Assembly: GCA_017452785.1 (NCBI GenBank)
Contig: JAFTLT010000014.1
Location: forward strand, 1 to 61,574
From: Clostridia bacterium
GTDB taxonomy: Bacteria; Bacillota; Clostridia; Oscillospirales; Acutalibacteraceae
Direction of reading: 5' to 3'
Length of the DNA: 61,574 nucleotides
Shown one piece after another: positions 1-15,531 of the stretch; within the stretch, counting starts at the first letter, position 1, and each line of letters opens with the position of its first letter. The notes under the pieces are model-generated. The model did not search any database. It was not told where the DNA came from and saw only the letters and a list, made by a program, of their open reading frames with translations. The position numbers and the translations under genes were made by a program.

Positions 1-150
1 ATAGCGCTTAAAGAAGCAAATGAAACATATTATTGGTTAAGGCTTTTACACAGTACAGATTATCTGACTGATAAGGAGTTTAAAAGTATGGAAAAAGACA
101 ATAAAGAAATTATTGCAATTTTAGTTTCTATATGTAAAAAACAAACGTAA
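1..150 (+). CDS. Four-helix-bundle protein, C-terminal 49 residues (5' end outside window)
   Basis: Frame 1 is open from the first base and stops with TAA at 148-150. The visible tail reads EANETYYWLRLLHSTDYL, then a charged helix ending in SICKKQT. This pattern (E-A-x-E-T-x-Y-W-L-x-L-L followed by a final helix with a Lys-rich end) is typical of the S23/IVS-type four helix bundle family, small proteins encoded in rRNA intervening sequences and also found alone in many bacterial genomes. Their cellular role is poorly defined. The start codon and N-terminal half are missing because the window begins inside the gene. Assignment rests on the family-like pattern in one helix pair only. Confidence 0.6.
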   Translation: MALKEANETYYWLRLLHSTDYLTDKEFKSMEKDNKEIIAILVSICKKQT

Positions 151-384
151 ATTAAGAGCAAAACGGCTTGCGGTGAAGCGGCACTTAAAATATAAAAAAG
201 TAAAATTTTGCAGGGTGTAAAATCCAAAAAGCAGAAACTGACGGTTACATTCGTTTTGCCTTTTGCGTTTTGCACTTTGCACTTAAATAATTTTTTTTGC
301 TCAAAAACGCTAATGTTTACAAATTGTTCACAAAAACCGCCGAAAACGCCTCAAAAAGTTACGCTTTTGTTACGCTCGGTTTGA

Positions 385-432
385 TATAATGCACTCGTAG
401 ACCAAAATAAATTCCCGAAAGGAGACAAAACA
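385..432 (+). promoter_or_regulatory. Extended -10 promoter and RBS for the 433 gene
   Basis: TGATATAAT gives an extended -10 element with TATAAT at 385-390. No good -35 is seen at the right spacing. An AGGAG ribosome site precedes the ATG at 433. The segment ATTCCCGAAAGGAG recurs almost unchanged in front of the paralogue at 2290, so the duplication included the leader. The rest of 151-384 is AT-rich with no gene that I can support. Confidence 0.55.
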
Positions 433-1716
433 ATGAAAAAATTATTATCAATCATCCTCGCAGTCCTAATGATTGCAACAACAATTCCCTTTGCATTTGC
501 GGCAGGTGACGGTGTACCCCTGACCATTGATGTTACGGATGTCGTCCGGGTGTATATCGGCAGTGAATACGACTATTACGACGAAGACGGCTATATTCTT
601 ACAGGCTCATCAGAAAGCGCAATAGTAAATGTTGAGGAATCCTGTGATTTAACATTAAAGGATGTTACTCTTGCTCAACTGCGCTTTTCCTATGCCCCTG
701 ACGGTTCTGTTATGAATATAACCCTTGAAGGAACAAACGAAGTTACCTATTATCTAATGCTTTCATCAGAACACTTGATTTTTGAGGGAAGCGACAATGC
801 TACATTTAAAGCTCCTTATTTAAACACCAGCGGAAATGACGGTACTGTTACAGTTAATGGCGGTAATATAGTTCTCGAAATGGTTACAGACAATAATGTA
901 CCCACCATAGGCTGTGCTGATTTTATAATCAACGGCGGCACGGTAACAGCTTCAAATAATAATTTTTATACAATCGAAGGACCGGTTAAGCTTAACGGCG
1001 GTACACTCAATGTTATCAGCACTTCTGAAAGCCTTGAAGCGATAGCAGGTGACATTACAATGAACAAGGGTGCCTTGCTTACAGTAAGCGGCACACACGG
1101 ACTTATCAGAAAATTTTATAACAATTTAATGGCAGATGGACTTGCTGAAAGCGATTCATTCTTTGTAAGATACGACACAGAAAGCGAATTTGTGCCTGTT
1201 TCTGACATTAAAGCAGCCCTTGACGGCAAAACTTATGCAGAAATTAAAATTGACGCACATGAGCATGATTATTCCGTAGGCGGCATATGTATCTGCGGTT
1301 GCCCGTGTCCTCATACTGAAACAGTAGGCCATCTTTGTGCTGTGTGCGGTGAAGCAGTAAGCAAGTGTGCAGATGAAGATAGGAACCACAAGTGTTATAT
1401 CTGCGACGAGACCTTAAGCGAATGTACAGATGGAGACAAGAACCACAAGTGTGACCTTTGCGGTGAAACAGTAAGTGAATGTGCAGACGAGGACACAAAT
1501 CACAAGTGTGACTACTGCGGTGAAACCGTAAGCGAATGTACGGATGAAAACAGGGACTACAAGTGTGACTACGGCTGCGGATATGAATTCGAGAACAACT
1601 GTGACCACCTTTGCCACAAGACAGGCTTTATGGGCTTCATCTGGAAGATAGTTCAGCTTATAAGTAAGCTTTTCAAACTCAATCCCTTCTGCGATTGCGG
1701 TGCGGCTCATTATTGA
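433..1716 (+). CDS. Secreted beta-helix-like protein with Cys-rich tandem repeats and CDHLCH...CDCG C-terminal module
   Basis: A 427-residue exported protein of unknown function. Residues 1-23 are a signal peptide ending in FAFAA. Residues ~25-270 carry Gly/Asn-rich strand repeats (NGGNIVLE, NGGTVTAS, NGGTLNVIS) like a right-handed beta-helix or carbohydrate-binding fold. Residues ~285-385 hold about five ~20-residue repeats of the form HKCDxCGETVSECxDExxN, whose CxxC pairs could bind metal or form disulfides. The last ~38 residues are CDHLCH, an amphipathic aromatic helix, and a terminal CDCG-A-A-H-Y. The same signal peptide and same C-terminal module occur in the protein at 2290, so the two are paralogues with different middles. 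A surface location is inferred from the signal peptide. No catalytic motif is seen. Confidence 0.8.
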   Translation: MKKLLSIILAVLMIATTIPFAFAAGDGVPLTIDVTDVVRVYIGSEYDYYDEDGYILTGSSESAIVNVEESCDLTLKDVTLAQLRFSYAPDGSVMNITLEGTNEVTYYLMLSSEHLIFEGSDNATFKAPYLNTSGNDGTVTVNGGNIVLEMVTDNNVPTIGCADFIINGGTVTASNNNFYTIEGPVKLNGGTLNVISTSESLEAIAGDITMNKGALLTVSGTHGLIRKFYNNLMADGLAESDSFFVRYDTESEFVPVSDIKAALDGKTYAEIKIDAHEHDYSVGGICICGCPCPHTETVGHLCAVCGEAVSKCADEDRNHKCYICDETLSECTDGDKNHKCDLCGETVSECADEDTNHKCDYCGETVSECTDENRDYKCDYGCGYEFENNCDHLCHKTGFMGFIWKIVQLISKLFKLNPFCDCGAAHY

Positions 1717-1733
1717 TACAACTGAATAATTTA

Positions 1734-1757
1734 CCGCCGGGAAGAAATCCTCGGGTG
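1734..1757 (+). terminator. Weak hairpin after the 433 gene
   Basis: CCGCCGGGAAGAAATCCT followed by CGGGTGG forms a hairpin nearly identical to the one ending the paralogue at 4310-4336, but without a proper T run. It may be a decayed or read-through terminator, so the next gene could be cotranscribed. Confidence 0.4.
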
Positions 1758-1779
1758 GAATCTCAAAAGGAAAAAATAT

Positions 1780-2259
1780 ATGGAAAAATTAAAAAAGATA
1801 CTGTTGCCCGTGGGTGCCGTTATCTTCGTTGCGGTTATTGTTGTGATGATGTTCACATCAGACCTTGAACACATTGAAGATACCAACGGAGCTGACAACT
1901 ATTCCCTGCAGCAGATTACTGACAGCAATATTATAAACATGGATACAGGTGCCTTGAATTTAAAAATAACAGAGGACATCATTTCAAACACAGTTACTTA
2001 TTCATCGGATAAATTTACGGGTGTTGAGGAAATTTACGGAACAAATTTGGTTGGTAACCGATTTGAAATAACCGTGTATCATGCACAGGTCAATTCGGGT
2101 AACTTTAAAATAGTTTTGCTTGAGGATGACAAAATTGTTCATGAGTTCAAGCTTAACGAGCTGATGCAAACCTATGTGCTTGAAAATCCAAGCGGACACA
2201 TCGCCTTGAGAATAGCCGGTGAGAGTGCAGATTTCAAACTGGATTACTATGTTCTTTAA
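1780..2259 (+). CDS. Small membrane-anchored protein of unknown function
   Basis: A 159-residue protein preceded by AAAAGGA. Residues ~6-26 form one hydrophobic segment (ILLPVGAVIFVAVIVVMMF), and the rest is a soluble, mostly beta-strand domain that would lie outside the cell. No Cys lipobox and no recognisable catalytic motif are present. It sits between two paralogous secreted Cys-rich proteins, 60 bases after one and 30 bases before the other, so the three are probably one transcription unit. I do not recognise the family; a role linked to the flanking surface proteins is only inferred from position. Confidence 0.7.
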   Translation: MEKLKKILLPVGAVIFVAVIVVMMFTSDLEHIEDTNGADNYSLQQITDSNIINMDTGALNLKITEDIISNTVTYSSDKFTGVEEIYGTNLVGNRFEITVYHAQVNSGNFKIVLLEDDKIVHEFKLNELMQTYVLENPSGHIALRIAGESADFKLDYYVL

Positions 2260-2289
2260 TAAACAAAATTCCCGAAAGGAGAAATCACA

Positions 2290-4287
2290 ATGAAAAAATT
2301 ATTATCAATCATTCTTGCAGTCCTAATGATTGCAACATCAATTCCCTTTGCATTTGCGGCGGAATCGGATAGCACAAAAACCACACTTGATGTTTCAAAG
2401 GGTAACATAGTCATCGCTGATACTTATGTAACTCAAAACGGAGAACATGTTGAACTTGATCCCGACGGCTATATCATTACAGGCAAAAGCGAAAATGTAG
2501 ATACTGTTCTGGAGTTTATAAATGAATCTTCGAATACGGTAACTTTCAATGTTGTTTTTGATAATCTGTACATTCAAGCCGCTGCTTATTGTACAGCACT
2601 CAGAATAAAAGGCGAAGGCCCCATAATTTTAAATATTGAACTTGTAGGAACAAATAATATAAAGAAGGGAAGTCACGCTGCGTTTTCCAATCAGGGAAAT
2701 TCAACCCTTGTTGTTAATTTATCAACAGGCTCTGATTCTTCAAATACTTTTCAGAGCAGCGGCAGGTTTTATGATAAAGATAATACAATTGTCTATTTAG
2801 ACGGAAAAGAAATGGATTCGTATGGTCACGTTCACTCAGGCGGCACACAGGCCTGCGGAGGCTATGTATGTGAGGATTGTGGCAATTGGTACGGCGAAGG
2901 TACCGGTGAGCATACAGGCGGCACACAGACCTGTAAGGGCTACATGTGCGAAACCTGCTATAATTGGTACGGCGAGGCTGATGAAACCAAGCATGGTTGG
3001 TATTATGGCTATTGCGAATATTGCAAATCGGAATATCCTGAAGACAGCGAATGTACACATAATTGGGGCAGTAACGGAGAATGCAAAATTTGTGGTGTCG
3101 AATGTGAACATCCTTCTTTTGAAAACGGCTCTTGCACAGTCTGCACATATGCTAATTTTCCTTTTTCACTCACAACGGGCGAAACCGTTACCTATCACAA
3201 TTCATTTGCCGATGCAGTAGATAAGGCTGAAAACGGAAGCACAATAAAGCTGTTAAAAGATCATTTTGATTATGAAATCGTAGACATAGAGAAGGAAATT
3301 ACCCTTGATCTTAACGGTCATAAGTGGAACCAGCCTTCATCGGGAAAGCATTCCGTAAGAGCAAATGTAAAATTTACCGATTCAGTCGGCGGCGGTTATT
3401 GTTATTACGGTTTAGATCTCTACAGTAAATGTACTTTTTCCGGCGGCGGATACAGAAATATCTCGATAGATTTTGAAACAGAAGATACTCTTGACGATTA
3501 CCTTGCAGATGGTTGCAATTATTATGACTATGAGTCCGGCGAGCTTCTTGATCTCTCAGAAGAGACTTTTTATGAGGGAATAAAAATCGTCAGCACTCAC
3601 ACCCACACAGGCGGTACAGCTACCTGCACCGAAAAGGCTGTTTGCAATGGTTGCGGCGAAAGCTACGGTGAGGTTGATAAAGATAACCACGATACAGTTG
3701 ATGTACCCGCAAAAGCAAAGACCTGTACAGAAGCCGGTTGGGATGCTTATGAATACTGTAAGGATTGTACCTACACAACAAAGGTAGAAATTCCTGCAAG
3801 CGGTCACACAGAAGAAACCGTAAAGGGTTACGCTGCAACCTGTACCGAAACAGGTCTCTCAGACGGCGTCAAGTGTTCAGAATGCGGTGATACTCTCACA
3901 GAACAGGTAGAAATCCCTGCAAGCGGTCACACAAAAGAAACCGTAAAGGGTTATGATGCAACCTGTACCGAAACAGGTCTCTCAGACGGTGTTAAGTGTT
4001 CAGCTTGCGGTGATACTCTCACAGAACAGACAGTGATTTCTGCCAAGGGTCACGCTGATGCGAACGGCGACGGTGTTTGCGACAACGGCGGCGAAGCAAT
4101 TGAAAAACAGGAACCCGATACACCTGACGAGCCCTCTGATGAGCCGACAGATGATACAACCAACGACTGTGACCACCTTTGCCACAGCACAAGCAAATTT
4201 GTTCAGTTCTTTTGGAAAATAATCAGTTTCTTACAGAAACTCTTTGGTATTCAGCAGTATTGTGATTGCGGAATTACCCATTGGTAA
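2290..4287 (+). CDS. Large secreted Cys-rich repeat protein with CDHLCH...CDCG C-terminal module
   Basis: A 665-residue exported protein. The signal peptide (residues 1-23) is nearly identical, in DNA as well as protein, to that of the 433 gene. The middle contains two HxGGTQxCxGYxCExC units (~175-225), further CxxC/CxH segments (~240-290), and a beta-rich stretch. Residues ~435-590 are repeats of the type GHTEETVKGYxATCTETGL followed by SDGVKCSxCGDTL; two of them are almost identical 123-bp tandem copies. An acidic Pro/Asp/Thr linker (~600-625) leads to the C-terminal module: CDHLCH, an aromatic amphipathic helix (FFWKIISFLQKLF) and terminal CDCG-I-T-H-W. Probably cell-surface or secreted; function unknown. 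Confidence 0.8.
   Translation: MKKLLSIILAVLMIATSIPFAFAAESDSTKTTLDVSKGNIVIADTYVTQNGEHVELDPDGYIITGKSENVDTVLEFINESSNTVTFNVVFDNLYIQAAAYCTALRIKGEGPIILNIELVGTNNIKKGSHAAFSNQGNSTLVVNLSTGSDSSNTFQSSGRFYDKDNTIVYLDGKEMDSYGHVHSGGTQACGGYVCEDCGNWYGEGTGEHTGGTQTCKGYMCETCYNWYGEADETKHGWYYGYCEYCKSEYPEDSECTHNWGSNGECKICGVECEHPSFENGSCTVCTYANFPFSLTTGETVTYHNSFADAVDKAENGSTIKLLKDHFDYEIVDIEKEITLDLNGHKWNQPSSGKHSVRANVKFTDSVGGGYCYYGLDLYSKCTFSGGGYRNISIDFETEDTLDDYLADGCNYYDYESGELLDLSEETFYEGIKIVSTHTHTGGTATCTEKAVCNGCGESYGEVDKDNHDTVDVPAKAKTCTEAGWDAYEYCKDCTYTTKVEIPASGHTEETVKGYAATCTETGLSDGVKCSECGDTLTEQVEIPASGHTKETVKGYDATCTETGLSDGVKCSACGDTLTEQTVISAKGHADANGDGVCDNGGEAIEKQEPDTPDEPSDEPTDDTTNDCDHLCHSTSKFVQFFWKIISFLQKLFGIQQYCDCGITHW
3784..4029 (+). 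repeat. Two tandem 123-bp repeats inside the secreted protein gene
   Basis: Copies at 3784-3906 and 3907-4029 begin GTAGAAATTCCTGCAAGCGG or the same with one change. They differ at a handful of positions, so the duplication is recent. Each encodes one 41-residue Cys-containing unit. Confidence 0.85.
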
Positions 4288-4309
4288 ACTAAAACCGAAT
4301 AAATAATTT

Positions 4310-4340
4310 ACCGCCGGGGAGTAAATCCTCGGCGGTTTCT
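4310..4340 (+). terminator. Terminator after the secreted protein gene
   Basis: ACCGCCGGGGA pairs with TCCTCGGCGGT across a 5-base loop, followed by a modest T-rich stretch. It ends the 433-4287 gene group. Confidence 0.7.
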
Positions 4341-4414
4341 GTTATATATCATTACTTTTCTTTCTGTTCGGAAAACACTTTTGATGTCCAAAAAACCACT
4401 TAATTTTTCACCTA

Positions 4415-4448
4415 TGGTGTCGGCAAAAACCGACACCACAAACTTTTT
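4415..4448. terminator. Perfect 9-bp hairpin with T-rich tail
   Basis: TGGTGTCGG (4415-4423) and CCGACACCA (4430-4438) pair perfectly around CAAAAA, followed by a T-rich stretch. It lies just before the degraded gene at 4442, with no intact gene directly upstream on the + strand. It may be a terminator left from a lost gene. Confidence 0.5.
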
Positions 4449-4774
4449 CTTCAAAAAGCTTTCTTGACCTTGCAAAAACTGCGGTGAGAAAATGCTTTGA
4501 GCTTCAAAATCAGCTTAACAGTATAAAGCTATGGGGCAAAGCTGATAAGCTCGATACAGGGCAAATATTGGCTCAAAATCGCACTCTTTTGTTACAGAAT
4601 GAAAAGCTTAACAGAGAGATTCAAAACTATAGATTGCTTCGTAAAGTTTTCGGTGTGATGAGCAGATTGATGAGCTTGTAGTAAAAGCAAAAGAAACCGA
4701 AAGAGCTACCCGTCAGGCTCGTTACAGAAAACCAAAACAGATTATTAACAGAGCCGATGGACAGCGAATTAAAT
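4442..4774 (+). pseudogene. Frameshifted remnant of a coiled-coil protein, possibly the end of a mobilisation gene
   Basis: One frame encodes FLDLAKTAVRKCFELQNQLN and continues as a Gln/Asn/Leu-rich coiled-coil to ~4655. It then breaks into a frame ending at 4681. Shifting frame at ~4657 restores an open, similar-looking charged helix (DEQIDELVVKAKETERATRQ) that runs to a natural TGA at 4772-4774. There is no convincing start codon or ribosome site. The best reading is the 3' end of a longer gene inactivated by truncation and a frameshift. Its position just upstream of a serine recombinase suggests an element-encoded relaxase-type or accessory gene, but I cannot assign the family. Confidence 0.5.
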
Positions 4775-4845
4775 GATTTAACATGGTAAATGTTGTAAAT
4801 AATAAAAATGAAATAATGTAAGGAAAGGCAGGTAAATTTTTCTTA

Positions 4846-5094
4846 ATGGAAATGGAAGTCTCCGAAAAAGACCGCATTGTCTACTATTGGTTAACTAACG
4901 AAGAAAAAGAAGATGCAGAATTCCGACAGTCGCTCAAGCCTCAGTACGGTGAGTGGAGCAGAAAGGGCTATAAGGTCTGTGTTTTCCTTTCCGGTAAGGG
5001 TAATCTCGTGGAATTAACAAAAGAGTTATTGGTTCACAATAAACATGTTATTGCTAAGAGAAATGTCAGACAAGCGATGGAGAGAGAAAGATAA
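4846..5094 (+). CDS. Small element-encoded protein of unknown function (82 aa)
   Basis: Begins MEMEVSEKDRIVYYWLTNEE and ends in a basic Arg-rich tail. AAGGAAAGG lies ~20 bases upstream, a little far for a ribosome site. No transmembrane segment and no recognised domain. The protein mixes an acidic N-terminus with a C-terminal KxVIAKRNVRQAMERE helix. It lies between the degraded coiled-coil gene and the recombinase, so it is probably part of the same mobile element. An accessory or excision-type role would be speculation. Confidence 0.6.
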   Translation: MEMEVSEKDRIVYYWLTNEEKEDAEFRQSLKPQYGEWSRKGYKVCVFLSGKGNLVELTKELLVHNKHVIAKRNVRQAMERER

Positions 5095-5180
5095 TTCTCG
5101 CTCCGAAGGCAGAATTTATTTCTGCCGGATACATAGACTTCCAATAATTATGTAAATATTATTTTAGGACAAAGGTTGAA

Positions 5181-5242
5181 ATGAACAACATTGTGTGTTA
5201 CAATGTTGTTCATAATGCCGAATAAAATAGAAAACAACATTG
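5181..5242. promoter_or_regulatory. 13-bp perfect inverted repeat plus third half-site before the recombinase
   Basis: ATGAACAACATTG (5181-5193) and CAATGTTGTTCAT (5201-5213) are perfect inverted copies separated by 7 bases. A third direct copy of AACAACATTG lies at 5233-5242, just before the recombinase ribosome site. The arrangement fits an operator for autoregulation or a binding site for an element-encoded factor; a role in recombination is possible but not shown. Confidence 0.6.
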
Positions 5243-5253
5243 GTGGTGATATA

Positions 5254-7470
5254 TTGAGCGTAAAAAGAATAGCGGCATATCTGAGAATTTCTGTTGATAC
5301 GGAAAAAGACAGAGATAACACCTCAATAGAAAATCAGCGACGGATTATCAAGGCATATATAAAGCAAACCTTTCCTGATGCAGAAGTTGATTATTATGAG
5401 GACCGTGACCGAAGCGGATATACCTTTGAGCAACGAGAAAACTATCAGTTAATGCGTCCTCGTCTGATGGACGGCTATTATGATATTCTTATGATTAAGG
5501 ATTTTTCACGTTTCTCCCGTCGTAACAGCAGAGGACTTGTTGAGCTTGAGGATTTGCGTGATGCAGGTGTTCGTATTATATCTGTAAGTGACGGTATCGA
5601 CTATCCGACTTATGACGATTGGAATAATATTCAGGTAAGATTTCTTCTCAATGAAATGCCTGTTACTGATGCTTCAAAAAAGGTAAAACGAGTTGTTGAG
5701 ATTCGTCAGAACAGCGGTAATTGGATTTGTGCAGTACCGTATGGTTACTATATTGTTGATAGCAAGAATATGGTTTTTGAAGTAGATGAAAGTGCTGCTG
5801 AGGTGGTCAGAAAAATTTTTGAGCTTTATAATGACGGTTGGGGTTATAAGAAAATTGCAAATTACCTTACCGAACAAAACATCCCTACTCCCCGTATGGT
5901 TGAAAAAGAACGAAAAGAGAAAGATGCTCAGCTTCGTAAAATCGAAAAAGAAATAAAAATCAAAGCGAGTAATGTGTGGGCAGTTCCGTCTATTAACGGT
6001 ATCTTAAGGAATGATTTTTATATCGGCACTCTGCGTCAAAGAAAATATACCCGTACCAAGATTAACGGTCCGGATAAAAAGCTTGACGAAGAAGAGAATA
6101 TTGTATTTGAAAATCACCATACGCCAATAGTTGAGGTTAAAGAGTTTATGAAAGCTCAGCAAAACCTTAAAACGAGAACTAAATCAAATTACAGAGGTGT
6201 CAAAAAATACGACACTACTTATTCGGGTTTTCTTTTCTGCGGAGATTGTAACAGTCCGATGTTTTCAATGAGCAGACCCGATTTAGCTCCTGCTTATGTT
6301 TGCGGCTCGTATCATAAGCGTGGATTAAGAGGTTGCACCTCTCATCATACACGTATTGATTTGCTTGATACACTTGTAAAAAAATACATTGAGCGTGTTA
6401 TGATGAACGCCGATGTAATGATTGCTGAGCTTGAAAAAGCAATTAAGGATGAGCCTGAAATGATGGAAAAATCTGCTGATACAGTTGCTAATCTTGAAGT
6501 TGAGTTGGCAAAAACAAGAGAAGAGCTTAAAGCAACTCAGAAACAGAAAATCCGGGAGCTTATGAAAAACCAAGGCTCTAACCGTGATATCATAGAAGAA
6601 ACCTACGAGGAAATAGAAGACGAGCTTCTTCAGAAAATTGAAGGTCTTGAAAAGCAGGTTGAAATGATTGTTGAAAAACGCAACACTGTCATTGAAGTTA
6701 ACCGTATTGCAAAGACAGCTCTTGACATTTTCCGTGATATTCTTGAAAAGCCAAACCTTGATAAAGGTGATTTAGGTTTAATTCTTGACAGAATCATAGT
6801 ACACGGAAGTGAAGAACCTTCTATTGATATTGAACTTAAGGCAGATATCAAAATGCTTCTTGAGGCAGGCACTCTTACCGATGAGCAGTTAAAGGAAGCA
6901 GGATACCGAGGTACAGTTGTAAATTTTGATTGGGACATCGGAAGTAACTTAAAAGCCACAATAGTCCAGAAGGCTAATCGCCAAAGGGACAAGGCTTTCG
7001 GTGTCAATGTTATATGTGGCGGCGACCCGTTGGAAATTTACACCGACACCGACGGTGAGGTAATCTTCAAGAAGTATTCCCCTATCGGTGAGCTTGGCCC
7101 CTATACAAAGCAGTATGTTGATGTCCTTGGAAGAACTACGGGAGTACCTGTGGTAATTTGTGACAGAGACCATGTTATTGCCGTGTCGGGTCTGCCGAAA
7201 AAGGATATGGTGGGCAAGCGTATTTCGCCCCTGCTTGAAAGCTATATGGAAAGAAGAAACACCTATGTTTTCGGTCAGGATAAGGATACCCTCATAGTCT
7301 CAGAGGATAGTCCCAAACCTATCAGCGTTATGACACCTATTATCGGCGGCGGTGATGTTATGGGGGCTGTGGTGCTGATGAGCACTGATAAAATGACAGC
7401 CCCCTCTCAGACCGATATCAAGCTCACTCAGGTTGCTGCAGGATTTTTGGGCAAACAGATGGAAGAGTAA
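5254..7470 (+). CDS. Large serine recombinase fused in frame to the C-terminal part of SpoVT
   Basis: Residues are counted from the TTG at 5254, chosen because it follows GGTGGTGAT and starts SVKRIAAYLR; an upstream in-frame ATG at 5191 would add 21 residues. Residues ~3-145 are the resolvase domain: catalytic Ser in YLRISVD, and KDFSRFSRR. Residues ~165-300 are the recombinase DNA-binding domain. Residues ~325-370 are a zinc ribbon (FCGDC...YVCGS...GCTSHH). Residues ~390-490 are a coiled coil. After residue ~588 the sequence changes to GDPLEIYTDTDGEVIFKKYS and a full GAF-type domain ending AAGFLGKQMEE, matching SpoVT from about its residue 31 to its end. The SpoVT part lacks the first strand-loop of the AbrB DNA-binding fold. 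The recombinase should catalyse site-specific integration/excision; the fused tail is probably host sequence captured at the attachment site. Confidence 0.9.
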   Translation: MSVKRIAAYLRISVDTEKDRDNTSIENQRRIIKAYIKQTFPDAEVDYYEDRDRSGYTFEQRENYQLMRPRLMDGYYDILMIKDFSRFSRRNSRGLVELEDLRDAGVRIISVSDGIDYPTYDDWNNIQVRFLLNEMPVTDASKKVKRVVEIRQNSGNWICAVPYGYYIVDSKNMVFEVDESAAEVVRKIFELYNDGWGYKKIANYLTEQNIPTPRMVEKERKEKDAQLRKIEKEIKIKASNVWAVPSINGILRNDFYIGTLRQRKYTRTKINGPDKKLDEEENIVFENHHTPIVEVKEFMKAQQNLKTRTKSNYRGVKKYDTTYSGFLFCGDCNSPMFSMSRPDLAPAYVCGSYHKRGLRGCTSHHTRIDLLDTLVKKYIERVMMNADVMIAELEKAIKDEPEMMEKSADTVANLEVELAKTREELKATQKQKIRELMKNQGSNRDIIEETYEEIEDELLQKIEGLEKQVEMIVEKRNTVIEVNRIAKTALDIFRDILEKPNLDKGDLGLILDRIIVHGSEEPSIDIELKADIKMLLEAGTLTDEQLKEAGYRGTVVNFDWDIGSNLKATIVQKANRQRDKAFGVNVICGGDPLEIYTDTDGEVIFKKYSPIGELGPYTKQYVDVLGRTTGVPVVICDRDHVIAVSGLPKKDMVGKRISPLLESYMERRNTYVFGQDKDTLIVSEDSPKPISVMTPIIGGGDVMGAVVLMSTDKMTAPSQTDIKLTQVAAGFLGKQMEE
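7018..7470 (+). pseudogene. spoVT: spoVT 3' portion, separated from its start by the element
   Basis: Encodes ~149 residues that align by eye with SpoVT residues ~31-178: the second half of the AbrB-like domain (GDPLEIYTDTDGEVIFKKYS), then the GAF domain with VVICDRDHVIAVSG and the conserved end GFLGKQMEE. SpoVT is a forespore transcription regulator and needs its N-terminal AbrB half to bind DNA, which is not present here. The piece can only be made as part of the recombinase fusion unless the element excises. Confidence 0.85.
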
Positions 7471-7586
7471 ATTTGAATGCAGAATGCAGAGTGCAGAGTG
7501 CAGAATTGCGGGTAATTTTTCACCGATAAGAAAAAGTTTATCCGCAAAGAGAGTAAAGATAAACTACCAACTTTTTCAATTATAAA

Positions 7587-7633
7587 CCTCATCCGTCACT
7601 TCGTAACACCTTCCCCTTTTAAAAGGGGAAGGC
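7587..7633 (-). repeat. CTTCCCC/GGATGAGG hairpin element, copy 1
   Basis: On the minus strand: CCTTCCCCTT pairs with AAGGGGAAGG, then GT, a short second hairpin, and GACGGATGAGG. The same architecture occurs at 31349-31394, 34829-34881 and 35378-35427. Confidence 0.7.
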
Positions 7634-7642
7634 AAAAAAACA

Positions 7643-7677
7643 GCAGGTCACTACCGTTTGGAAGTGACCTGCCTTTT
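7643..7677. terminator. Bidirectional terminator GCAGGTCACT...AGTGACCTGC
   Basis: A 10-bp perfect stem (7643-7652 with 7663-7672), T-rich on both sides when read on either strand. It can terminate the recombinase/spoVT transcript and the converging radical SAM gene. Closely related stems occur at 49083-49116 and 55215-55250. Confidence 0.8.
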
Positions 7678-7767
7678 ATTAAGATTGTTGAAGTTTCCGG
7701 TTTCTGAGCTTTCGCTCTGCGGATAGAAACTTTTGGTTAGTAAGAAGCAAAACTGCGACCACAATTC

Positions 7768-9198
7768 CTAATTCCTAATTGAGTTAAACTCCGCCTTGCC
7801 TTCTTCTGTGTCCCTGTAATACTGAGTCTTGGGGTTGGGGTGCTTGGTGCTTTTCCACAGCTCGTCAGCTCTTGGAGCCCACTCTTTTGCGAATTTATCG
7901 CATTTGCTGCAAAGCATTTCTGCAGTCTCTTCCTGAATGAGGTTAGTTGACTTTGCACCCGTTCTTTTTACAATATCTCTCAGACACTGAGGATTTTCAA
8001 GCATGGGACAAGGTCTCAGGTGATTGTCGTTGAAGGGCTGATCATGTCTGAAGGCCATAAACAAGGGATTCTGCAGAGCCTCTAAAAGTGTGTGGGTTCT
8101 GATATTAGAGTCAGAGAAGTGAATAAATACACAGGGCTCCATATCACCTGCTGAGTTGATGTGGAAGTAGTTTCTGCCGCCTGCGATACAGCCGCCCACG
8201 TACTCACCATCACTCTGGAAATCCATAAAGAACATAGGCTTGCCGTTTTTGCCGTTTCTGACACGTCTGAGCCACTTATACATATATTCTCTTTGTTCGG
8301 GAGTGGGGATAAGCTCAGGTGATGCACCGTGACCAACAGGCATAAAATTGAAATAGAGAGCATACTTGACACCCAGCTCAACCATTTTATCAAGAAACTC
8401 GTCGCTTGTTACCTTTTCAACATTATTCCTTGTGTAGCAAACGCTCATGCCATAAAGACAGCCCTTGCTCTTAAGCAGCTTCATGGCATTGATAACCTTC
8501 TGATAGTTACCCTCACCACGTCTGTCATCTGTTGACTCCTCATCACCCTCAATTGAAAGTGCAAGTGCGAAGTTGCCCACTCTGAGCATATCGTCACAGA
8601 GTTTTTCATCAACAAGGTGACCGTTGGTGTACGCCATAAAACCGCAATCGGGATATTCCTCACAAAGCTTTATAATATCGTCTTTTCTTATGAGAGGCTC
8701 ACCGCCTGTGAGCATATAGAAGTGTGTGCCGAGCTCTCTGCCCTGAGAAACGATGCTTGACATTTCTTCATAAGTCAGGTTATTCTGATGGCCGTACTCT
8801 GCCGCCCAGCAGCCCTTACACTTGCAGTTGCAGGCACTTGTGGGGTCAAACAAAATCTGGAATGGTATATTGCAACCGTATTTCTCTCTGTTTTCTCTTA
8901 CTGCCTTAGTACCTTTGACTCCTGCGCCAAGACCAACGGCGAGAAGCATCTTTTTGAGCATTTCTCTGTCAAGGTCATGGAGAATACTCATAGCGAGAGT
9001 GTAATAAACGTTATCCTGCTCCTTGATAATTCTTCTTGCAGCTTCGATATTCTTTTTAGGGAAGGTGTCACCTAAAAGTTTTTCTGCAAGGTCTATGAGC
9101 TTGATAAGGTTTTCCTGAGGATTTTTATCAATATATTTTAACAGTCCGTCAATGGTTGCGCCGACTGCCAGTCTTTCGGCTTTTTCTTTAATTGTCAT
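7768..9198 (-). CDS. Radical SAM/SPASM-type enzyme
   Basis: A 476-residue protein with AGGGAGG before its ATG. Residues 1-95 form a helical N-terminal extension. The radical SAM core begins ~110 with the 4Fe-4S motif CNCKCKGCW (CxxxCxxC), followed by YMLTGGEPLIRKDDI (SAM binding) and LALSIEGDEE. A C-terminal Cys cluster (GGCIAGG...MEPCVFIHF...CPMLENPQC...CSKC) is typical of a SPASM-like auxiliary cluster region. Such proteins modify peptides, build heme precursors or act on other substrates; no precursor peptide or partner is adjacent, so the substrate is unknown. The divergent neighbour is a DedA-type membrane protein. Confidence 0.85.
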   Translation of the reverse strand: MTIKEKAERLAVGATIDGLLKYIDKNPQENLIKLIDLAEKLLGDTFPKKNIEAARRIIKEQDNVYYTLAMSILHDLDREMLKKMLLAVGLGAGVKGTKAVRENREKYGCNIPFQILFDPTSACNCKCKGCWAAEYGHQNNLTYEEMSSIVSQGRELGTHFYMLTGGEPLIRKDDIIKLCEEYPDCGFMAYTNGHLVDEKLCDDMLRVGNFALALSIEGDEESTDDRRGEGNYQKVINAMKLLKSKGCLYGMSVCYTRNNVEKVTSDEFLDKMVELGVKYALYFNFMPVGHGASPELIPTPEQREYMYKWLRRVRNGKNGKPMFFMDFQSDGEYVGGCIAGGRNYFHINSAGDMEPCVFIHFSDSNIRTHTLLEALQNPLFMAFRHDQPFNDNHLRPCPMLENPQCLRDIVKRTGAKSTNLIQEETAEMLCSKCDKFAKEWAPRADELWKSTKHPNPKTQYYRDTEEGKAEFNSIRN

Positions 9199-9295
9199 TG
9201 AGGTACCTCCCTTTGATGAGTATAAATAACATTACATGTTAATATATCATAATTACTTTAAATTGTCTATAACAAAAAGTGAATTATATTTTTTC

Positions 9296-9324
9296 TTGTT
9301 TTCTGCCAATGCTTGGTGTATAAT
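9296..9324 (+). promoter_or_regulatory. Promoter for the DedA/TVP38 gene
   Basis: TTGTTT at 9296-9301 and TATAAT at 9319-9324 with 17 bases between, followed by AAAGGAC and the ATG at 9354. Confidence 0.6.
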
Positions 9325-9353
9325 ATCAAAAGTTACTTTGAAAGGACAAAGCT

Positions 9354-10040
9354 ATGAACAATAAAACAAAATCCACCTTACTCGCCTTACTCAGAGCTGC
9401 TGTTGCTATGACTATATTCGTTTTAGCCGTTATAAATTACGAAAAGCTGAAAAACATAGATGTGCGTGCCATTGTTGAGGCTTCTTCAGGCGTACTTGTT
9501 GCAGTTTTAACCATATGGGGAGTCTATCTTGTCAAATCCGTTCTCTTTATTATACCCGCTTCTCTTATTTATATTTCAATCGGCATGGCTTTTCCTACGG
9601 TTAATGCTTGTTTAATAAGTCTTGTTGGCATTATTCTTGAGGTTACGGTGACTTATTTCTTAGGCCTTTTTCTTGGGGGAGACTATGTCAATAAGCTGCT
9701 TGAAAAAAGCAAGGGCGGGCAGAAAATTTTAGATATGAAAATCAACGACAATTTTCCTGCTTTTCTTGCCATAAGGGCTCTGCCGGTTTTCCCCATTGAC
9801 TTCGTTTCACTTTTCTGGGGTGCATCAAAAGCTAAGTTTCCCCGTTATTTCATAGCCTCTGTTGTCGGCATTATGCCCAGAGTTATCCTCTTCACTATTT
9901 TAGGCGACGGCATTTATGATTATATACCCATTCATCTTATTATTCAGATTGTTATATGTGCTATCCCTGTCGGTGTTATCATTTATCTTGTAAGACACTT
10001 CATAAAAATGAAAAAATCCGACGGTGAGTCGGACCTGTAA
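9354..10040 (+). CDS. DedA/TVP38/TMEM64 (VTT domain) membrane protein
   Basis: A 228-residue integral membrane protein with about six hydrophobic segments. The centre holds the family-type pattern: a Gly-rich FLGLFLGGDYV loop, then FPAFLAIRALPVFPIDFVSLFWGASK, whose R-x-x-P-x-x-P-x-D-x-x-S core resembles the VTT/SNARE-associated domain, with FPRYFIASVVGIMPRVILF after it. The family is linked to lipid scrambling and membrane homeostasis. It is transcribed alone from its own promoter, divergent from the radical SAM gene. Confidence 0.8.
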   Translation: MNNKTKSTLLALLRAAVAMTIFVLAVINYEKLKNIDVRAIVEASSGVLVAVLTIWGVYLVKSVLFIIPASLIYISIGMAFPTVNACLISLVGIILEVTVTYFLGLFLGGDYVNKLLEKSKGGQKILDMKINDNFPAFLAIRALPVFPIDFVSLFWGASKAKFPRYFIASVVGIMPRVILFTILGDGIYDYIPIHLIIQIVICAIPVGVIIYLVRHFIKMKKSDGESDL

Positions 10041-10049
10041 AAGGTAAAA

Positions 10050-10079
10050 TTCCGAACAGCACCTGAGTGCAATTCGGAA
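10050..10079 (+). terminator. Hairpin after the DedA gene
   Basis: TTCCGAA (10050-10056) pairs with TTCGGAA (10073-10079), enclosing a second GCAC/GTGC stem. The T tail is weak. The rest of 10080-10234 is AT-rich with no gene seen. Confidence 0.5.
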
Positions 10080-10234
10080 CTTTACAGATATTAGAGAACC
10101 AGAAGTTGTCACAAATTAAACATAAAAACAAACTTTTGTTGTTTTGCAACACTATAATACAATATCTGTTGCATTTTTTAAATAGTTTTTTTGTTTTTTA
10201 ATATTTTTTAAAAAATTTATTCCAAATTAAAAAT

Positions 10235-10279
10235 AACTCCTCAATTCACCGCAATCAAGTGAGTTGAGGAGTTTTTTTA
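10235..10279. terminator. Strong terminator of the MATE gene
   Basis: AACTCCTCAA (10235-10244) and TTGAGGAGTT (10264-10273) form a 10-bp stem, with A/T-rich runs on both sides. It lies at the 3' end of the minus-strand MATE gene and can act in both directions. Confidence 0.8.
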
Positions 10280-11638
10280 TTCGGCTTTATTTAATTTGCT
10301 GATAAGTGTTTTATAAACATATCTGAAGCAGATAAGTGTAACAATCAGTGACATAATTTCTGCAATGGGGAAGGCGAACCAGACATTATTAAGCACCTCC
10401 GTCTTTGCCAGCAGATATGCTGCAGGCAGCAACACAATAATCTGTCTTGCAAAGGATACAATAGTAGAGAAATGACTTCTGCCAAGTGCTTGGAAGGATG
10501 CACCGAGGTTTATGCTTGCACCTGCAAAAATGAAATGTGTGCTGATTATTCTCAGTGCAGGCACGCCGATACCCATCATATCATCGCTTGCATCAAAGAG
10601 TCTGAGCATTGTTTCAGGCATAATCCACATAAGCAGTGTGCCGAAAGCCATAATTGCCACTGCAATAGTGCAGCTGAATTTAAGAGTTGAAGTTATTCTG
10701 TCTTTGTTTCTTGCACCGTAGTTAAAGGCAACTATAGGAATAACACCGTTATTCAGACCAAAGATAGGCATAAAGACAAAGGACTGCAGTTTGAAATAAA
10801 CACCGAAAACTGCCGCTGCAGTTGTTGAAAAGCCAAGCAGAATTTTGTTAAAGCAGAAGGTCATAAACGAGCCGATTGCCACCATTATAATTGAAGGCAC
10901 ACCGATTTTATAAATTTCACCTATTATCTTGCCGTCAGGTCTGAAGCCCTTAAGTGAAACGTGAACCTCTTTGTTATATTTCTGATTTAAGACTATGCCC
11001 ACAATAAATGCCACTATCTGACCGAAGACAGTTGCAATAGCCGCACCCTTTGCTTCCATTCTCGGAAAAGGTCCGATGCCCATAATGAGAAGCGGGTCAA
11101 AGATAATGTTTATTATAGCGCCTGTGAGCTGTGTTATCATGGCAAGGGTGGTTTTGCCCGTTGCCTGCATGAGTCTTTCCATAGTCACCTGACCGAAAAG
11201 ACCTATTGATGCTGCACAGACAACCGAAAGGTAATCAACACCATAGGAATAAATAGGGGATGCAGTGTCTATCTGTGCCTTAAAAAACAGCGGTGCGCCA
11301 AAAATGCCAAAGAGCAAAAACACAACTGAGCTGAGTGCTGCAAGAAAAACACCCTGAGCCGCAATTTTATTTGCCTTGTCATAATCTCTTGCACCAAGAC
11401 TTCTTGAAAGCAGTGCGTTTATACCTACGCCGGTACCCGTAGCCACACCTATCATAAGGTTTTGCGCAGGGAAAGCAAGTGACACTGCCGTGAGAGCGTC
11501 CTCGCAGACCTGAGAGACAAATATGCTATCCACAACATTATAAAGAGCCTGCACCAGCATAGACACCATCATGGGAAAGCTCATACTTAAAACCAATTTT
11601 TTTATAGGCATAACGCCCATTTTATTTTCTTTGTGCAT
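10277..11638 (-). CDS. MATE family multidrug/Na+ exporter
   Basis: A 453-residue protein with about 12 transmembrane helices in two homologous halves. Start ATG follows AAAGGAG. The N-terminus has the MATE pattern PIKKLVLSMSFPMMVSMLVQ, ALYNVVDSIFVSQ and DALTAVSLAFPAQ; the second half has IYKIGVPSIIMVAIGSF and GLNNGVIPIVAFNYGA, the usual N-YGA signature. Such proteins expel cationic drugs or metabolites using a Na+ or H+ gradient. It is monocistronic, and its substrate cannot be told from the sequence. Confidence 0.9.
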   Translation of the reverse strand: MHKENKMGVMPIKKLVLSMSFPMMVSMLVQALYNVVDSIFVSQVCEDALTAVSLAFPAQNLMIGVATGTGVGINALLSRSLGARDYDKANKIAAQGVFLAALSSVVFLLFGIFGAPLFFKAQIDTASPIYSYGVDYLSVVCAASIGLFGQVTMERLMQATGKTTLAMITQLTGAIINIIFDPLLIMGIGPFPRMEAKGAAIATVFGQIVAFIVGIVLNQKYNKEVHVSLKGFRPDGKIIGEIYKIGVPSIIMVAIGSFMTFCFNKILLGFSTTAAAVFGVYFKLQSFVFMPIFGLNNGVIPIVAFNYGARNKDRITSTLKFSCTIAVAIMAFGTLLMWIMPETMLRLFDASDDMMGIGVPALRIISTHFIFAGASINLGASFQALGRSHFSTIVSFARQIIVLLPAAYLLAKTEVLNNVWFAFPIAEIMSLIVTLICFRYVYKTLISKLNKAE

Positions 11639-11908
11639 TTATTAAACTCCTTTTGTCAGATTATCTTGGTTATTATATCATTGTTGCAATTTTAAATCTA
11701 CACTTTTCAGAAAATTCTTTTATTGATTTCGCACTGTAATCAAAACAAATAAATGTGCAAAATGACGAAATTTAAGTCGTTTTTGCCTAAATTGTCTTTT
11801 TGTTTTTTAGCAAAAATGATAAAATACTTTTTAAGAGGTTGTCTGTCTTTAATTTTTTTAGTTAATATGGTATAATTACTGTGAATTTATTCCCGAGGAG
11901 GATATGAC

Positions 11909-14900
11909 ATGAAAAATTTCAAACGTATAATTTCTGTTCTCTTGTGTCTTGCAATGGTTTTCTCTCTTGCAAGCTCACTTTCCTATGCGGCAGAGTTCAG
12001 AAAAGAAACACCCAAGGCAAAGCTTAACTTTGTAACAATCTCTGACCCCCATTTCTATCCCGAAAGTCTTATGGGCGGCAAGGGTAAGGCATGGCAGGAT
12101 TACGCCTCAACCAACACAAAGCAGTTTGCTCAGTCAGAGCAGATGATGAGAACTGCAATTGAAACTGCAGTGGCAAGAAATCCTGAGCTTGACTATATTC
12201 TTATCCCCGGTGACCTGACAAAAGACAGTGAATATGTGGCTCACGTCGAGTTTGCCGCTTTACTCGAAGAATACGAAGCAAAATACGATGTGCAGTTTAT
12301 TGTTACAACAGGTAACCACGACATCAATCAGGACAGAGCTCTCACCTTTGAAAACGGCAAAAAGGAAAGAGCAAGAGCTATTCAGGCACACGAATTTGAC
12401 GATGTATATAAAAACCTCGGCTATGACCTTGCTTTCACACGCTATGCAACCGACAGCGAAAAGAAGGTTAACGGTCTTTCTTACGCAGTGGAGCTTAAAG
12501 ACGAAAACGGCAACGAGAGCTACCGTCTTATAGTTATTGACAGCTGCAAATATACCTTCGACCCTGAAACTGCTGACCACAAAACTGACGGCGCAGTTAC
12601 AGATGAGCTTATGCAGTGGGTAAAAGGGCTTGCAGATGATGCATATAAAAACGGCAAGACTCCCCTTGTTATGATTCACCACGGTCTTGCAGCTCACATG
12701 GAAACTGAACCTTCCATAACTCATGCTTTCCCTCTTGACAACTATATGGAAGTTGCAGAGCAGCTCGCTTCTTGGGGCATCCACTATGCTTTCACAGGTC
12801 ATCTGCACACAGACGATATTGCTTGCGTTATCAACGATGACGGCGAAGTTCTCTACGACTGCGAAACAGCTTCAATTTCAAGCTATCCCTGCACATACCG
12901 TGAAATGACAATTGAAACCTATGCTGACGGCGAAAGTGCAATGAGCTTTGAAAGTGTAGATTTTGATGCAGTGGCAAAGTTCACCTATGACGGTGTTACA
13001 TACGATAACGGTACATATAAAAACACTGTTTTCAATAACGCTTTCGGCGGACTCAAGAGTGAAGACGGCAAGGCAGATGCAACCATCTTCCTCGTTGATA
13101 TTGTCAAGTCCTTCCTTGGCGGATATATTGAGCAGATAAGCGCTGCAGGTAGTGTTGATGCTTTCCTTAAAACAATGAATATTGACCTTCGTGCAATCAT
13201 CGGTGGCTTCCTTGAGCCTTATATCGGCGAAGGCATTGCAGTGGGCGGCTATAATATTTTCAGCGTTGACAATATTATGTGGTTCATAAACGATCTCCTT
13301 GGTCAGGTTTATGACCTTTATATCAAAAATCCCGATGACCTTTATAATCTGCTTGAGGACCTTATCGGTCAGCTCACAAGCCTTCAGGTTTCAGATTTGC
13401 CCTGCACTGCACTGCTTGAAAGCCACGGCATAGGCGACGCATCAAGACCCGGCAACTTAGGTGATCTTATCCTCACAGCTATGGTATATTGGTATATGGG
13501 TAATGAAGATGCTGCTGAGAATGAATTCCTGCAGGATGCAATTGCAAAATGCGAAAGCGGTGAAACAATCACTAAGCTCTTTGATTTACTCATTGACCTT
13601 CTGCTTCACAATTTAATTGAAGATAACATCCTCGGCAAGCTTGAAATCCGCCTTGGCAAGCTTATGAATGACGATGTAATAGGCAAGGCACTCGGTGACG
13701 GAATTGACTATCTTGTCAATGTGCTGCTTCAGGGCAACCCCACATATATGAATCTTGTTGACACAGTTTTTGCCCTTGAAATACTCCCCTATAAAGATCT
13801 CTATGACGTGCTTGACCAGCTTGCAATTCAGAAATATCTCACCTTCAGCCAGTTTGAGGGCATAGGAATATATGTGGCTTATGTGCTCAATGACTTCACA
13901 GGTGATGTTAACCCACAGCACAAGGGCGACTCAGATGTTGTTTACTCCACCGAAAAGGTTGAGGTGCCCGTAACAAGAGAAAACTACCGTCTGCCCACAA
14001 ATGTCAGCGTAACTCTCGGTGAAGAAAAGAACACGAGTGCATATATCAGTTGGTTCTCAAAATATTCCGTCGGCGGCGACATTGAAATTTACAAGGCCGA
14101 TAAGGAGCCAACCTTTACAGGTACCCCCACAACAAATGCAGATTTCAGCATTGACCTTAAATCAGAAACTGTTACCCGCTCCTTCCCCGGAATTGACATC
14201 GGTATTGCAGGCTTCATTCAATATGAATTTGCAATTAACCGCCACATCGTAACGCTGACAGACCTTGAAGAGGGTGCAACCTATTATTACCGCATAGGTT
14301 CTGCTGAAAAAGGCTGGTGGAGCGACACAGGCGTTATCAGAACAGGTGACGGCAGCAAGGAAGTTACCTTCTTCCATATGGCTGACCCTCAGTCACAAAA
14401 CGAAAAGCAGTATAACAGAGCATGGGCAAAGGTTGTTGAAGAAGCCTTCAAGACTCACCCCGACAGTGATTTCATTATCAACACCGGTGATATGGCTGAC
14501 CACGGCGACAACTTCAAGCATTGGTTCTGGCTTTTCAACACAGCTTCAGATGAGCTTATGAGCACCTATCTTATGCCCACATCAGGCAACCATGAGGGAC
14601 ACGGTACCAACGCAATAGTGAATAACTTTGTTGTACCGAATGCTCCTGAACAGGATGTTACCGGCGGTGTATATTACAGCTTCGATTATAACAACATCCA
14701 CTTTGCAGTGCTCAACTCAGAGAATCTGAATGAAGACGAAGGCCTCAGCAACGACCAGATTGAGTGGCTCAAAAAGGATATGACTGAAAGTGATGCTCAG
14801 TGGAAGTTTGTTGCTCTTCACAAGGCAGTTTACTCTCAGGGCTCACACTATAAGGATGATGATGTATGCGCTATCCGTGAGCAGCTCAGTGTGCTTATGC

Positions 14901-15418
14901 CCCAGCTGGATGTTGATATGGTCTTCCACGGTCACGACCATGTTTATATGAGAACAGGTTCACTTGTCAACAACGCTCTGACAGGCTATGACGCAACATA
15001 TCTTAACTTTGACGGCAAGGTTTATAAGACTCAGATTCAGCCCACAGGCACAACCTATGTCATTTCAGGCTGCAGCGGTGTCAAGACCTACATTCAGAAC
15101 GATCCCTCACTTACAGATGAATACTTCCCCAGAGGAGACAAGATGCTTTCATTTGATTCTCCCATGTTCTCGGCAGTGAGAGTTGTTGACGGCGTGCTTT
15201 ACTTCGATGCCTACACAGTGACAGAAGAAGGTGCCACTGTAGTTGACTCAATTGCTATTCAAAAGGACACCACTCAGGGTGATGTTGCAGAGGGCTACAC
15301 TCCCCCTGCTGAGGACCCTGCCGAGGAGGATAGCGAAAACATCTTTGAAAAGATTCTTTCAGTTCTTGCAAAGGTGCTCAAGGTTATGGTTAACATAGCT
15401 AAGATTTATATTTTCTGA
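11909..15418 (+). CDS. Secreted protein with two metallophosphoesterase domains
   Basis: A 1169-residue exported enzyme. ATG follows GAGGAGGATA; residues 1-28 are a signal peptide. Domain 1 (~38-345) has the calcineurin-like metal motifs DPHFYP, GDLTKD, GNHDIN, HHG and GHLHTDD. A long helical middle (~400-700) follows. Then a purple-acid-phosphatase-type Fn3 domain (~725-810, YISWFSKYSV...ATYYYRIG) leads into domain 2 (~815-1100) with MADPQS, NTGDMADHGDN, GNHEGHG, HKAVY and GHDHVY. The last ~25 residues form an amphipathic helix (FEKILSVLAKVLKVM) after an acidic Pro/Glu linker, recalling the helix in the C-terminal modules at 433 and 2290. A role in extracellular phosphate release is inferred. 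Two full catalytic domains in one chain is unusual. Confidence 0.88.
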   Translation: MKNFKRIISVLLCLAMVFSLASSLSYAAEFRKETPKAKLNFVTISDPHFYPESLMGGKGKAWQDYASTNTKQFAQSEQMMRTAIETAVARNPELDYILIPGDLTKDSEYVAHVEFAALLEEYEAKYDVQFIVTTGNHDINQDRALTFENGKKERARAIQAHEFDDVYKNLGYDLAFTRYATDSEKKVNGLSYAVELKDENGNESYRLIVIDSCKYTFDPETADHKTDGAVTDELMQWVKGLADDAYKNGKTPLVMIHHGLAAHMETEPSITHAFPLDNYMEVAEQLASWGIHYAFTGHLHTDDIACVINDDGEVLYDCETASISSYPCTYREMTIETYADGESAMSFESVDFDAVAKFTYDGVTYDNGTYKNTVFNNAFGGLKSEDGKADATIFLVDIVKSFLGGYIEQISAAGSVDAFLKTMNIDLRAIIGGFLEPYIGEGIAVGGYNIFSVDNIMWFINDLLGQVYDLYIKNPDDLYNLLEDLIGQLTSLQVSDLPCTALLESHGIGDASRPGNLGDLILTAMVYWYMGNEDAAENEFLQDAIAKCESGETITKLFDLLIDLLLHNLIEDNILGKLEIRLGKLMNDDVIGKALGDGIDYLVNVLLQGNPTYMNLVDTVFALEILPYKDLYDVLDQLAIQKYLTFSQFEGIGIYVAYVLNDFTGDVNPQHKGDSDVVYSTEKVEVPVTRENYRLPTNVSVTLGEEKNTSAYISWFSKYSVGGDIEIYKADKEPTFTGTPTTNADFSIDLKSETVTRSFPGIDIGIAGFIQYEFAINRHIVTLTDLEEGATYYYRIGSAEKGWWSDTGVIRTGDGSKEVTFFHMADPQSQNEKQYNRAWAKVVEEAFKTHPDSDFIINTGDMADHGDNFKHWFWLFNTASDELMSTYLMPTSGNHEGHGTNAIVNNFVVPNAPEQDVTGGVYYSFDYNNIHFAVLNSENLNEDEGLSNDQIEWLKKDMTESDAQWKFVALHKAVYSQGSHYKDDDVCAIREQLSVLMPQLDVDMVFHGHDHVYMRTGSLVNNALTGYDATYLNFDGKVYKTQIQPTGTTYVISGCSGVKTYIQNDPSLTDEYFPRGDKMLSFDSPMFSAVRVVDGVLYFDAYTVTEEGATVVDSIAIQKDTTQGDVAEGYTPPAEDPAEEDSENIFEKILSVLAKVLKVMVNIAKIYIF

Positions 15419-15433
15419 TAAAATTTAATAGAG

Positions 15434-15467
15434 CAGTCGCAGAAAAAAATCTGCGACTGTTTCTTTT
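15434..15467 (+). terminator. Terminator of the phosphoesterase gene
   Basis: CAGTCGCAGA (15434-15443) pairs with TCTGCGACTG (15450-15459), followed by TTTCTTTTT. Confidence 0.85.
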
Positions 15468-15473
15468 TACCTA

Positions 15474-15531
15474 TTGACAAAATAAAAAGTCCGTGCTATA
15501 ATTCATTTAACATTTAAGTTAAATGTTAAAT
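15474..15531 (+). promoter_or_regulatory. Consensus promoter with 27-bp palindromic operator for the sdpRI-like operon
   Basis: TTGACA (15474-15479), 17 bases, TATAAT (15497-15502): an ideal sigma-A promoter. A perfect 27-bp palindrome spans 15505-15531, centred on G15518, with core AACATTTAA-G-TTAAATGTT. It covers the predicted transcription start, so a repressor bound there would block initiation. The adjacent ArsR/SdpR-type gene is the obvious candidate. Confidence 0.85.

Follow-up and report, generated by a model that had tools for sequence, protein, structure and literature searches.

Why should a site-specific recombinase end in the C-terminal domain of a sporulation regulator? The question arises from one contig (C16) of a Clostridia genome (G000; 74 contigs, completeness 89.8, contamination 3.6). 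The entire contig, 61574 bases, is the stretch analysed here and is called the window. Positions 5254-7470 form a single uninterrupted frame of 738 amino acids with a TTG start. Pfam profiles for Resolvase (2.2e-14), Recombinase (8.9e-23) and Zn_ribbon_recom (1.1e-10) all scored over cut-off, followed by SpoVT_C (2.2e-40, profile positions 1-128 of 128). The serine of RISVD presumably has the role that it plays in large serine recombinases. SpoVT contributes 149 residues to the fusion. The NCBIfam profile spore_V_T matched from position 27 to 180 with 146.5 bits; this is under the cut-off of 235.9, as expected because the SpoVT N-terminus is missing from the fused frame. SpoVT_C was found once in the source genome. 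The coordinates are collected below.

Table 1. Features of the window around the recombinase-SpoVT junction
Feature	Position	Strand	Basis
Right part of element to contig limit (presumably extending to base 1)	1..7020	+	No match to G008 locus left of 7021
Small ORF, 82 aa, directly upstream of recombinase	4846..5094	+	No Pfam or NCBIfam match
Inverted repeat, 14-bp arms, ending 40 bp before recombinase start	5181..5213	+	Inverted-repeat search
Element-encoded recombinase, 589 codons: Resolvase, Recombinase, zinc ribbon, coiled coil	5254..7020	+	Pfam; nine-sequence alignment
P arm of attachment site, encoding last element-encoded recombinase residues	7000..7020	+	Inverted repeat with C37 arm
attR core GGCGACCC, Gly-Asp-Pro in both genes	7021..7028	+	8 bp common to C37, window and G008
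Host spoVT, codon 31 to stop, 149 codons, fused in frame to recombinase	7021..7470	+	SpoVT_C; identity with G008
Radical SAM/SPASM gene, first of right chromosomal flank	7768..9198	-	Pfam; flank aligns with G008 to window 16335

A search with a SpoVT N-terminus located the other half of the gene in the same genome (G000:C37:10577-10681). On contig C37, spoVT codons 1-33 continue into ...GDPLHTSLTPYERFCYAILSFSERCIG and then stop, giving 57 amino acids in total. This piece retains positions 1-28 of the 48 in the MazE_antitoxin profile, the first part of the AbrB-type domain. A genome of the same genus, G008, has an intact spoVT, and its locus (L034) aligns to both contigs. C37 2043-10674 aligns with L034 1-9665, and window 7021-16335 with L034 9658-18932, each in pieces. 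The two alignments overlap in 8 bp, the core. Left of window 7021, no match to the G008 locus was found. The spoVT part of the window is 87% identical to the G008 gene over 491 bp of nucleotide sequence and, as judged from that intact locus, the halves on C37 and the window rejoin in frame. Because both contigs flank the intact G008 gene around one core, an element evidently lies between them. Its left end starts at C37 base 10675 and its right part runs to window position 7020; the sequence that separates the two contigs is a gap. The C37 part encodes TnpV (matched only from profile position 29, with a stop upstream in its frame), a RhuM-family gene and a histidine kinase.

The first-pass annotation, made from the letters of the window, had proposed most of this arrangement: a serine recombinase in frame with SpoVT, a junction near 7018-7026, last ~149 residues taken from the host gene, an element inserted in spoVT and an N-terminal half to be sought outside the window. 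Each of these points stood. The same annotation predicted that precise excision would restore spoVT and alter the recombinase C-terminus, and the core, the arms described next and the G008 locus agree with this.

The element arms are inverted repeats around the core, centred on its GA, in all nine attL/attR pairs tested. The arms match at 20-22 of 31 positions, with one best centre; shuffled sequences gave means of about 8 and maxima of 15-19. For the window and C37, 22/31 positions match (shuffles: mean 8.1, maximum 16). Scored without shuffles, five more complete elements (G205, G206, G207, G210 and G213) gave 19-22 and the inverted element of G218 gave 16. The attP arms differ from the attB flanks. 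By this reading the recombinase 3' end is half of attP, which lies within the recombinase gene. Hence, integration exchanges the C-termini of the recombinase and SpoVT. The recombinase evidently loses a conserved tail of ~25 residues and gains the last ~149 residues of SpoVT; the N-terminal half of SpoVT gains the ~25-residue tail in return. That the left fragment acquires the recombinase tail, making the exchange reciprocal, and that the arrangement recurs across Clostridia, both go beyond the earlier proposal.

Is the tail a genuine part of the recombinase? Of 51 distinct tails, 44 in one register were analysed; two very short, one unfinished and three long tails were left out, as was L111, which is off register. 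Arg25 is kept in 44/44, Leu9 in 43/44, Phe/Tyr15 in 42/44 and Glu13 in 26/44. Codon-position entropies of 1.37, 1.11 and 1.71 identify second positions as most conserved and third positions as least. The tail pN/pS is 0.38 over 41 close pairs, and the tails are open in the frame of the recombinase. Residue conservation, the codon-position pattern, pN/pS and the frame open across attP together support the view that the recombinase naturally ends in this tail when the element is free. G217 has a natural arm-to-arm junction in which the tail contains a stop; an intact spoVT lies 2.8 kb away.

We assessed how widely the arrangement occurs by scanning GTDB contigs with a recombinase-only alignment of nine sequences. 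This returned 442 relatives, and the best 80 were kept. Among these 80, 72 run in frame into SpoVT (68 to the stop and four off the contig), seven are unfused and one ends before the junction. SpoVT_C is 147-154 amino acids long in 67 of the 68 complete fusions. Fused named strains are Ruminococcus bromii 5AMG, R. bicirculans 80/3, R. flavefaciens 007c and ATCC 19208, Anaerotruncus massiliensis AT3, Eubacterium sp. MSJ-21, Flavonifractor sp. An100 and Ruminococcus sp. Marseille-P6503. In these eight and Lachnospiraceae B68, both element ends were present in 9/9 genomes, on one contig and strand in seven (12.5 to 54 kb); none of the nine gave a full-length match to the SpoVT N-terminus. A further 48 genomes, from which weaker AbrB-like matches (about 45-63% identity) were excluded by eye, comprised 39 with the N fragment and tail, 44 with the fused C-terminal part and 35 with both. 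The two ends share a contig in 18 of the 48, in the same orientation in 17 (9.0-77.9 kb) and opposed in G245. No full-length SpoVT match was seen in the 48; a second match in G248, a 186-aa frame that might have been an intact gene, is a recombinase-SpoVT fusion at a contig end. Departures from the standard arrangement are the inverted G218 element, the opposed ends of G245, a degraded left end in G010 and a shortened SpoVT_C in the L130 fusion.

Closer to the window, SpoVT_C was present in 51/60 relatives. Long fused frames occur within the genus in G004, G011, G017, G019, G022, G027 and G029 (the contig of which begins inside the recombinase), besides the source genome. G006, G010, G012 and G024 likewise contain N fragments joined to tails. 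Other SpoVT_C frames in the genus are about 143-231 amino acids long, and many same-genus relatives have an intact spoVT. Among 150 genomes of the family, seven including our own have a recombinase match at E <= 1e-80; all six others, in other genera, run into SpoVT, L084 doing so off the contig end. Three IMG/VR contigs (L245, L246 and L248) have the in-frame junction; SpoVT-N with the tail was absent from the four viral records searched. A junction that recurs in 72 of the 80 named loci, in the six family genomes and in these contigs is no product of chance. All 225 records from a plasmid search were under 60% identity.

Some genomes hold the recombinase away from spoVT. Five (G214-G217 and G219) have full-length spoVT with the recombinase elsewhere, and G220, apparently the same assembly as G006 (identical coordinates), has a split spoVT and a recombinase of this kind elsewhere. 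The L123 recombinase (2928-5447), which shares 97% identity with the window-led query, lies in a genome with full-length spoVT and is fused in frame to an ORF that is exo/endonuclease-like by eye, a secondary target. In G218:C11 (L240) and L200, the element is inverted: the recombinase end adjoins the N half of spoVT, with the two on opposite strands.

The elements are mobile. Recombinases often differ far less at synonymous sites than the SpoVT_C parts to which they are joined (L024/L025, 0.014 vs 0.974; L138/L141, 0.029 vs saturated; L180/L190, 0.049 vs 1.70); the converse pattern was seen for L125/L135 and L148/L172. Trees of 74 fusions, with a split support threshold of 90, contained 55 supported recombinase splits and 48 supported SpoVT_C splits, 16 being common to both; 32 of the 55 recombinase splits were contradicted by SpoVT_C splits. 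The conflicting trees and unequal divergence indicate that related elements transfer between Clostridia, evidently inserting repeatedly at the spoVT site. Low dN/dS in SpoVT_C was rejected as proof of selection on the split gene, since many insertions look recent.

Element length is 9-78 kb where both ends are on one contig in the same orientation. The cargo includes type I restriction proteins (G205, G206 and, by clustering, G204), MobA-type relaxase (G204, G206), NikA/MobC-like proteins (G204, G205) and TnpV (G205 and C37). Other cargo in G207, G210 and G213 was seen only as ORFs. By ORF inspection, no phage genes were seen in six complete elements. Defence-like cargo was also noted: type I restriction-modification sets in both L231 (1402-14125) and L232 (1518-9363), GmrSD_N and HipA_C proteins in R. 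bromii, and an Orf5/HEC-06-like protein in A. massiliensis. In the right part of the window element, ORFs 433-1716 and 2290-4287 have near-identical signal-like starts (MKKLLSIILAVLMIAT); both are large, rich in cysteine and have no Pfam match.

Upstream of the recombinase, the small ORF of Table 1 is, by position only, a candidate directionality factor. Similar small ORFs precede the recombinase in other elements; those of G204, G205 and G213 cluster together and, judged by eye, the window ORF resembles them. The adjacent inverted repeat is possibly an operator. Inverted repeats with arms of at least 8 bp occur upstream of the recombinase in 18/38 regions, compared with 1/38 after one shuffle each. 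No sequence was common to most of the 38 regions, and the 14-bp repeat of the window is not general. The upstream repeats of L131 and L139 contain TTACAAT, at a position similar to that of the window repeat.

Does the element leave spoVT again? Precise excision should restore spoVT and the recombinase's own tail together, and we consider reversibility in vivo somewhat more probable than not. In G138, contigs C219/C104 and C78/C42 overlap by exactly 99 bp each, bounded by the core GGGGACCC. This suggests an assembly-graph branch between an integrated and a probably empty site in one sample; two strains or excision could be the source. The empty-site junction itself was not seen in G138. A second candidate for an excising strain, G022, was rejected: its intact and occupied alleles differ at 10/271 bases and so belong to two strains. 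A search with a pattern that matched each of five predicted junctions without a mismatch found no free attP in 35 assemblies of the genus. Several contigs end near the core start (L122 at 271 bases, L174 at 124, L191 at 57, L246 at 126, L247 at 5 and L248 at 291), which is suggestive at best. The IMG/VR contig L247 stops 5 bases into the core, as though assembly had halted at the attachment site.

We regard the anatomy and the reciprocal exchange as well supported and highly probable. An integrative element with a large serine recombinase, inserted at spoVT codons 31-33 and with attP in the recombinase 3' end, is the very probable explanation. Integration cuts spoVT, leaving its promoter and codons 1-33 joined to the element tail (a product mostly of 56-65 amino acids), while the last ~149 codons come to encode a C-terminal domain for the recombinase. 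When the element is free, the recombinase would end in its own tail, read across attP in the same frame. Precise excision may then restore both genes.

What would this mean for the host? To our knowledge, the intervening-element targets for which the compartment is known are commonly used in the mother cell, and excision there was the analogy drawn in the first-pass annotation. While its element, host-derived C-terminus and left fragment were all recovered, this analogy did not hold: in B. subtilis, B. cereus and C. difficile, SpoVT is a protein of the forespore (PMC5061766, PMC3789822). As described in these sources, C. difficile spoVT is under sigma F and G and its mutant lacks heat-resistant spores (PMC3789822), and the B. 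cereus mutant arrests late (PMC5061766). Integration would be expected to block SpoVT and with it mature spores. The spore would pass on any excision made in the forespore, and re-integration or loss would then have to follow. SpoIVA was found in 16/17 genomes tested, the exception being G019. For R. bromii, a full spore-gene set is reported, with spores of L2-63; strain 5AMG is described as lacking 3 of 73 spore genes (PMC5814915).

The swap would also alter the recombinase, which would carry its own tail when free and the GAF-like domain of SpoVT when integrated. This may set the direction of recombination or tie the recombinase to the state of the host. Developmental control of the switch can be proposed only tentatively. 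Slightly less likely still is a heritable two-way switch, in which the GAF-like domain sets direction or ties excision to forespore or nutritional state, with spoVT off meanwhile. One recombination event would then reprogramme both proteins and gate spore formation in many gut Clostridia.

The element may instead be selfish and the fusion incidental. The attP overlap would serve compactness, the conserved spoVT gene would offer a convenient target and the hybrid C-termini would be inert; carriers would not sporulate properly until the element or the lineage was lost. Horizontal spread and seemingly recent, repeated insertion would alone keep the spoVT halves intact, and the relaxase, mobilisation and restriction genes look like those of an ordinary mobile element. 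Against this, SpoVT_C length is nearly constant, decay is not common, and several isolates have only the split gene while SpoIVA is retained in 16/17 genomes tested. These arguments are weak because the insertions may be young, and this explanation has a substantial chance of being right, if somewhat below even.

It is improbable, though worth considering, that the hybrid proteins function when integrated, with the GAF-like domain controlling the recombinase, the SpoVT N half and tail acting as a regulator, or both. The SpoVT C-terminus resembles a GAF domain and may bind a ligand (PMC5061766). Several genomes hold extra copies of the promoter, N half and tail, as if kept or spread; the extra G006 copy, however, has no start and is preceded by an in-frame stop, and the short MazE_antitoxin match makes DNA binding by the N half doubtful. 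Extra copies of the N half and tail were seen in G232:C11 (L296, L297), G244:C12 (L298), G251:C16 (L302), G253:C22 (L299), G217:C107 (L238, L239), G006:C77 (L075), G225 and G250. Several have about 60-110 bp of similar upstream sequence, and simple attP x attB insertion does not account for them.

Many genomes share the fusion, as they would if it were an old, stable gene inherited vertically without an element, but intact spoVT in same-genus relatives (empty sites), left halves with att-like tails and conflicting trees rule this out; the annotation's own alternative, a stable fusion lacking an att-like repeat, is likewise contradicted by the core and inverted-repeat arms. An assembly or binning chimera, conceivable for a draft contig of a MAG-like genome, is just as remote and is ruled out for the class by single-contig structures in R. 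bicirculans 80/3, A. massiliensis AT3, R. bromii 5AMG and others.

The integrative element at spoVT can be compared with several known systems. We know of no intervening element or self-interrupting integrase with such a reciprocal exchange, and among the papers listed in searches of open-licence PMC articles, none reported an element in spoVT in its title or displayed abstract. In carriers, annotation may record spoVT as missing and label the fusion simply as a recombinase. Should excision prove to be regulated, a mobile element may control whether many gut commensals (Ruminococcus, Anaerotruncus, Flavonifractor, Lachnospiraceae) sporulate. This would be relevant to the non-sporing appearance of some strains and to their passage between hosts.

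The domains (Resolvase, Recombinase and zinc ribbon) and the attP, whose inverted-repeat arms flank a short core and which is unlike attB, are those of large serine recombinases. Relaxase (G204/G206), NikA/MobC-like proteins (G204/G205) and TnpV (G205/C37) recall serine-recombinase integrative mobilisable elements, the window element being incomplete; the strong preference for spoVT and an attP within the recombinase frame set the present elements apart. Intervening elements are known in sigK, spsM, spoVFB, gerE and yabG (PMC5595907, PMC10747680). As in the cases described there, a sporulation gene is interrupted at a short core by an element with a serine recombinase, and removal would rejoin the frame; the six complete elements resemble gin in gerE in their apparent lack of phage genes, and some elements carry restriction genes. 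Unlike those targets, spoVT encodes a forespore regulator, on data from Bacillus and C. difficile rather than these hosts. A further difference is that here the recombinase is itself joined to the host gene, whose N half acquires the recombinase tail.

Two systems share the placing of attP in a coding frame. In mycobacteriophage BPs, as described in PMC4557955, integration likewise changes a protein C-terminus; there a repressor is shortened and stabilised, whereas here a recombinase is extended and the host gene changed in return. The SSV-type suicidal integrases of archaeal elements have attP inside the recombinase gene, so that integration changes the gene (PMC8371274). Theirs are tyrosine enzymes split into two inactive parts; ours is a bacterial serine enzyme in which only the tail is exchanged, the remaining enzyme being whole and gaining a host domain. 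It offers a natural test of whether a changed recombinase C-terminus sets the direction of recombination. Self-interrupting integrases are called exclusively archaeal in that review (PMC8371274), in contrast to which the spoVT element would carry a serine-class self-interrupting recombinase in Bacteria.
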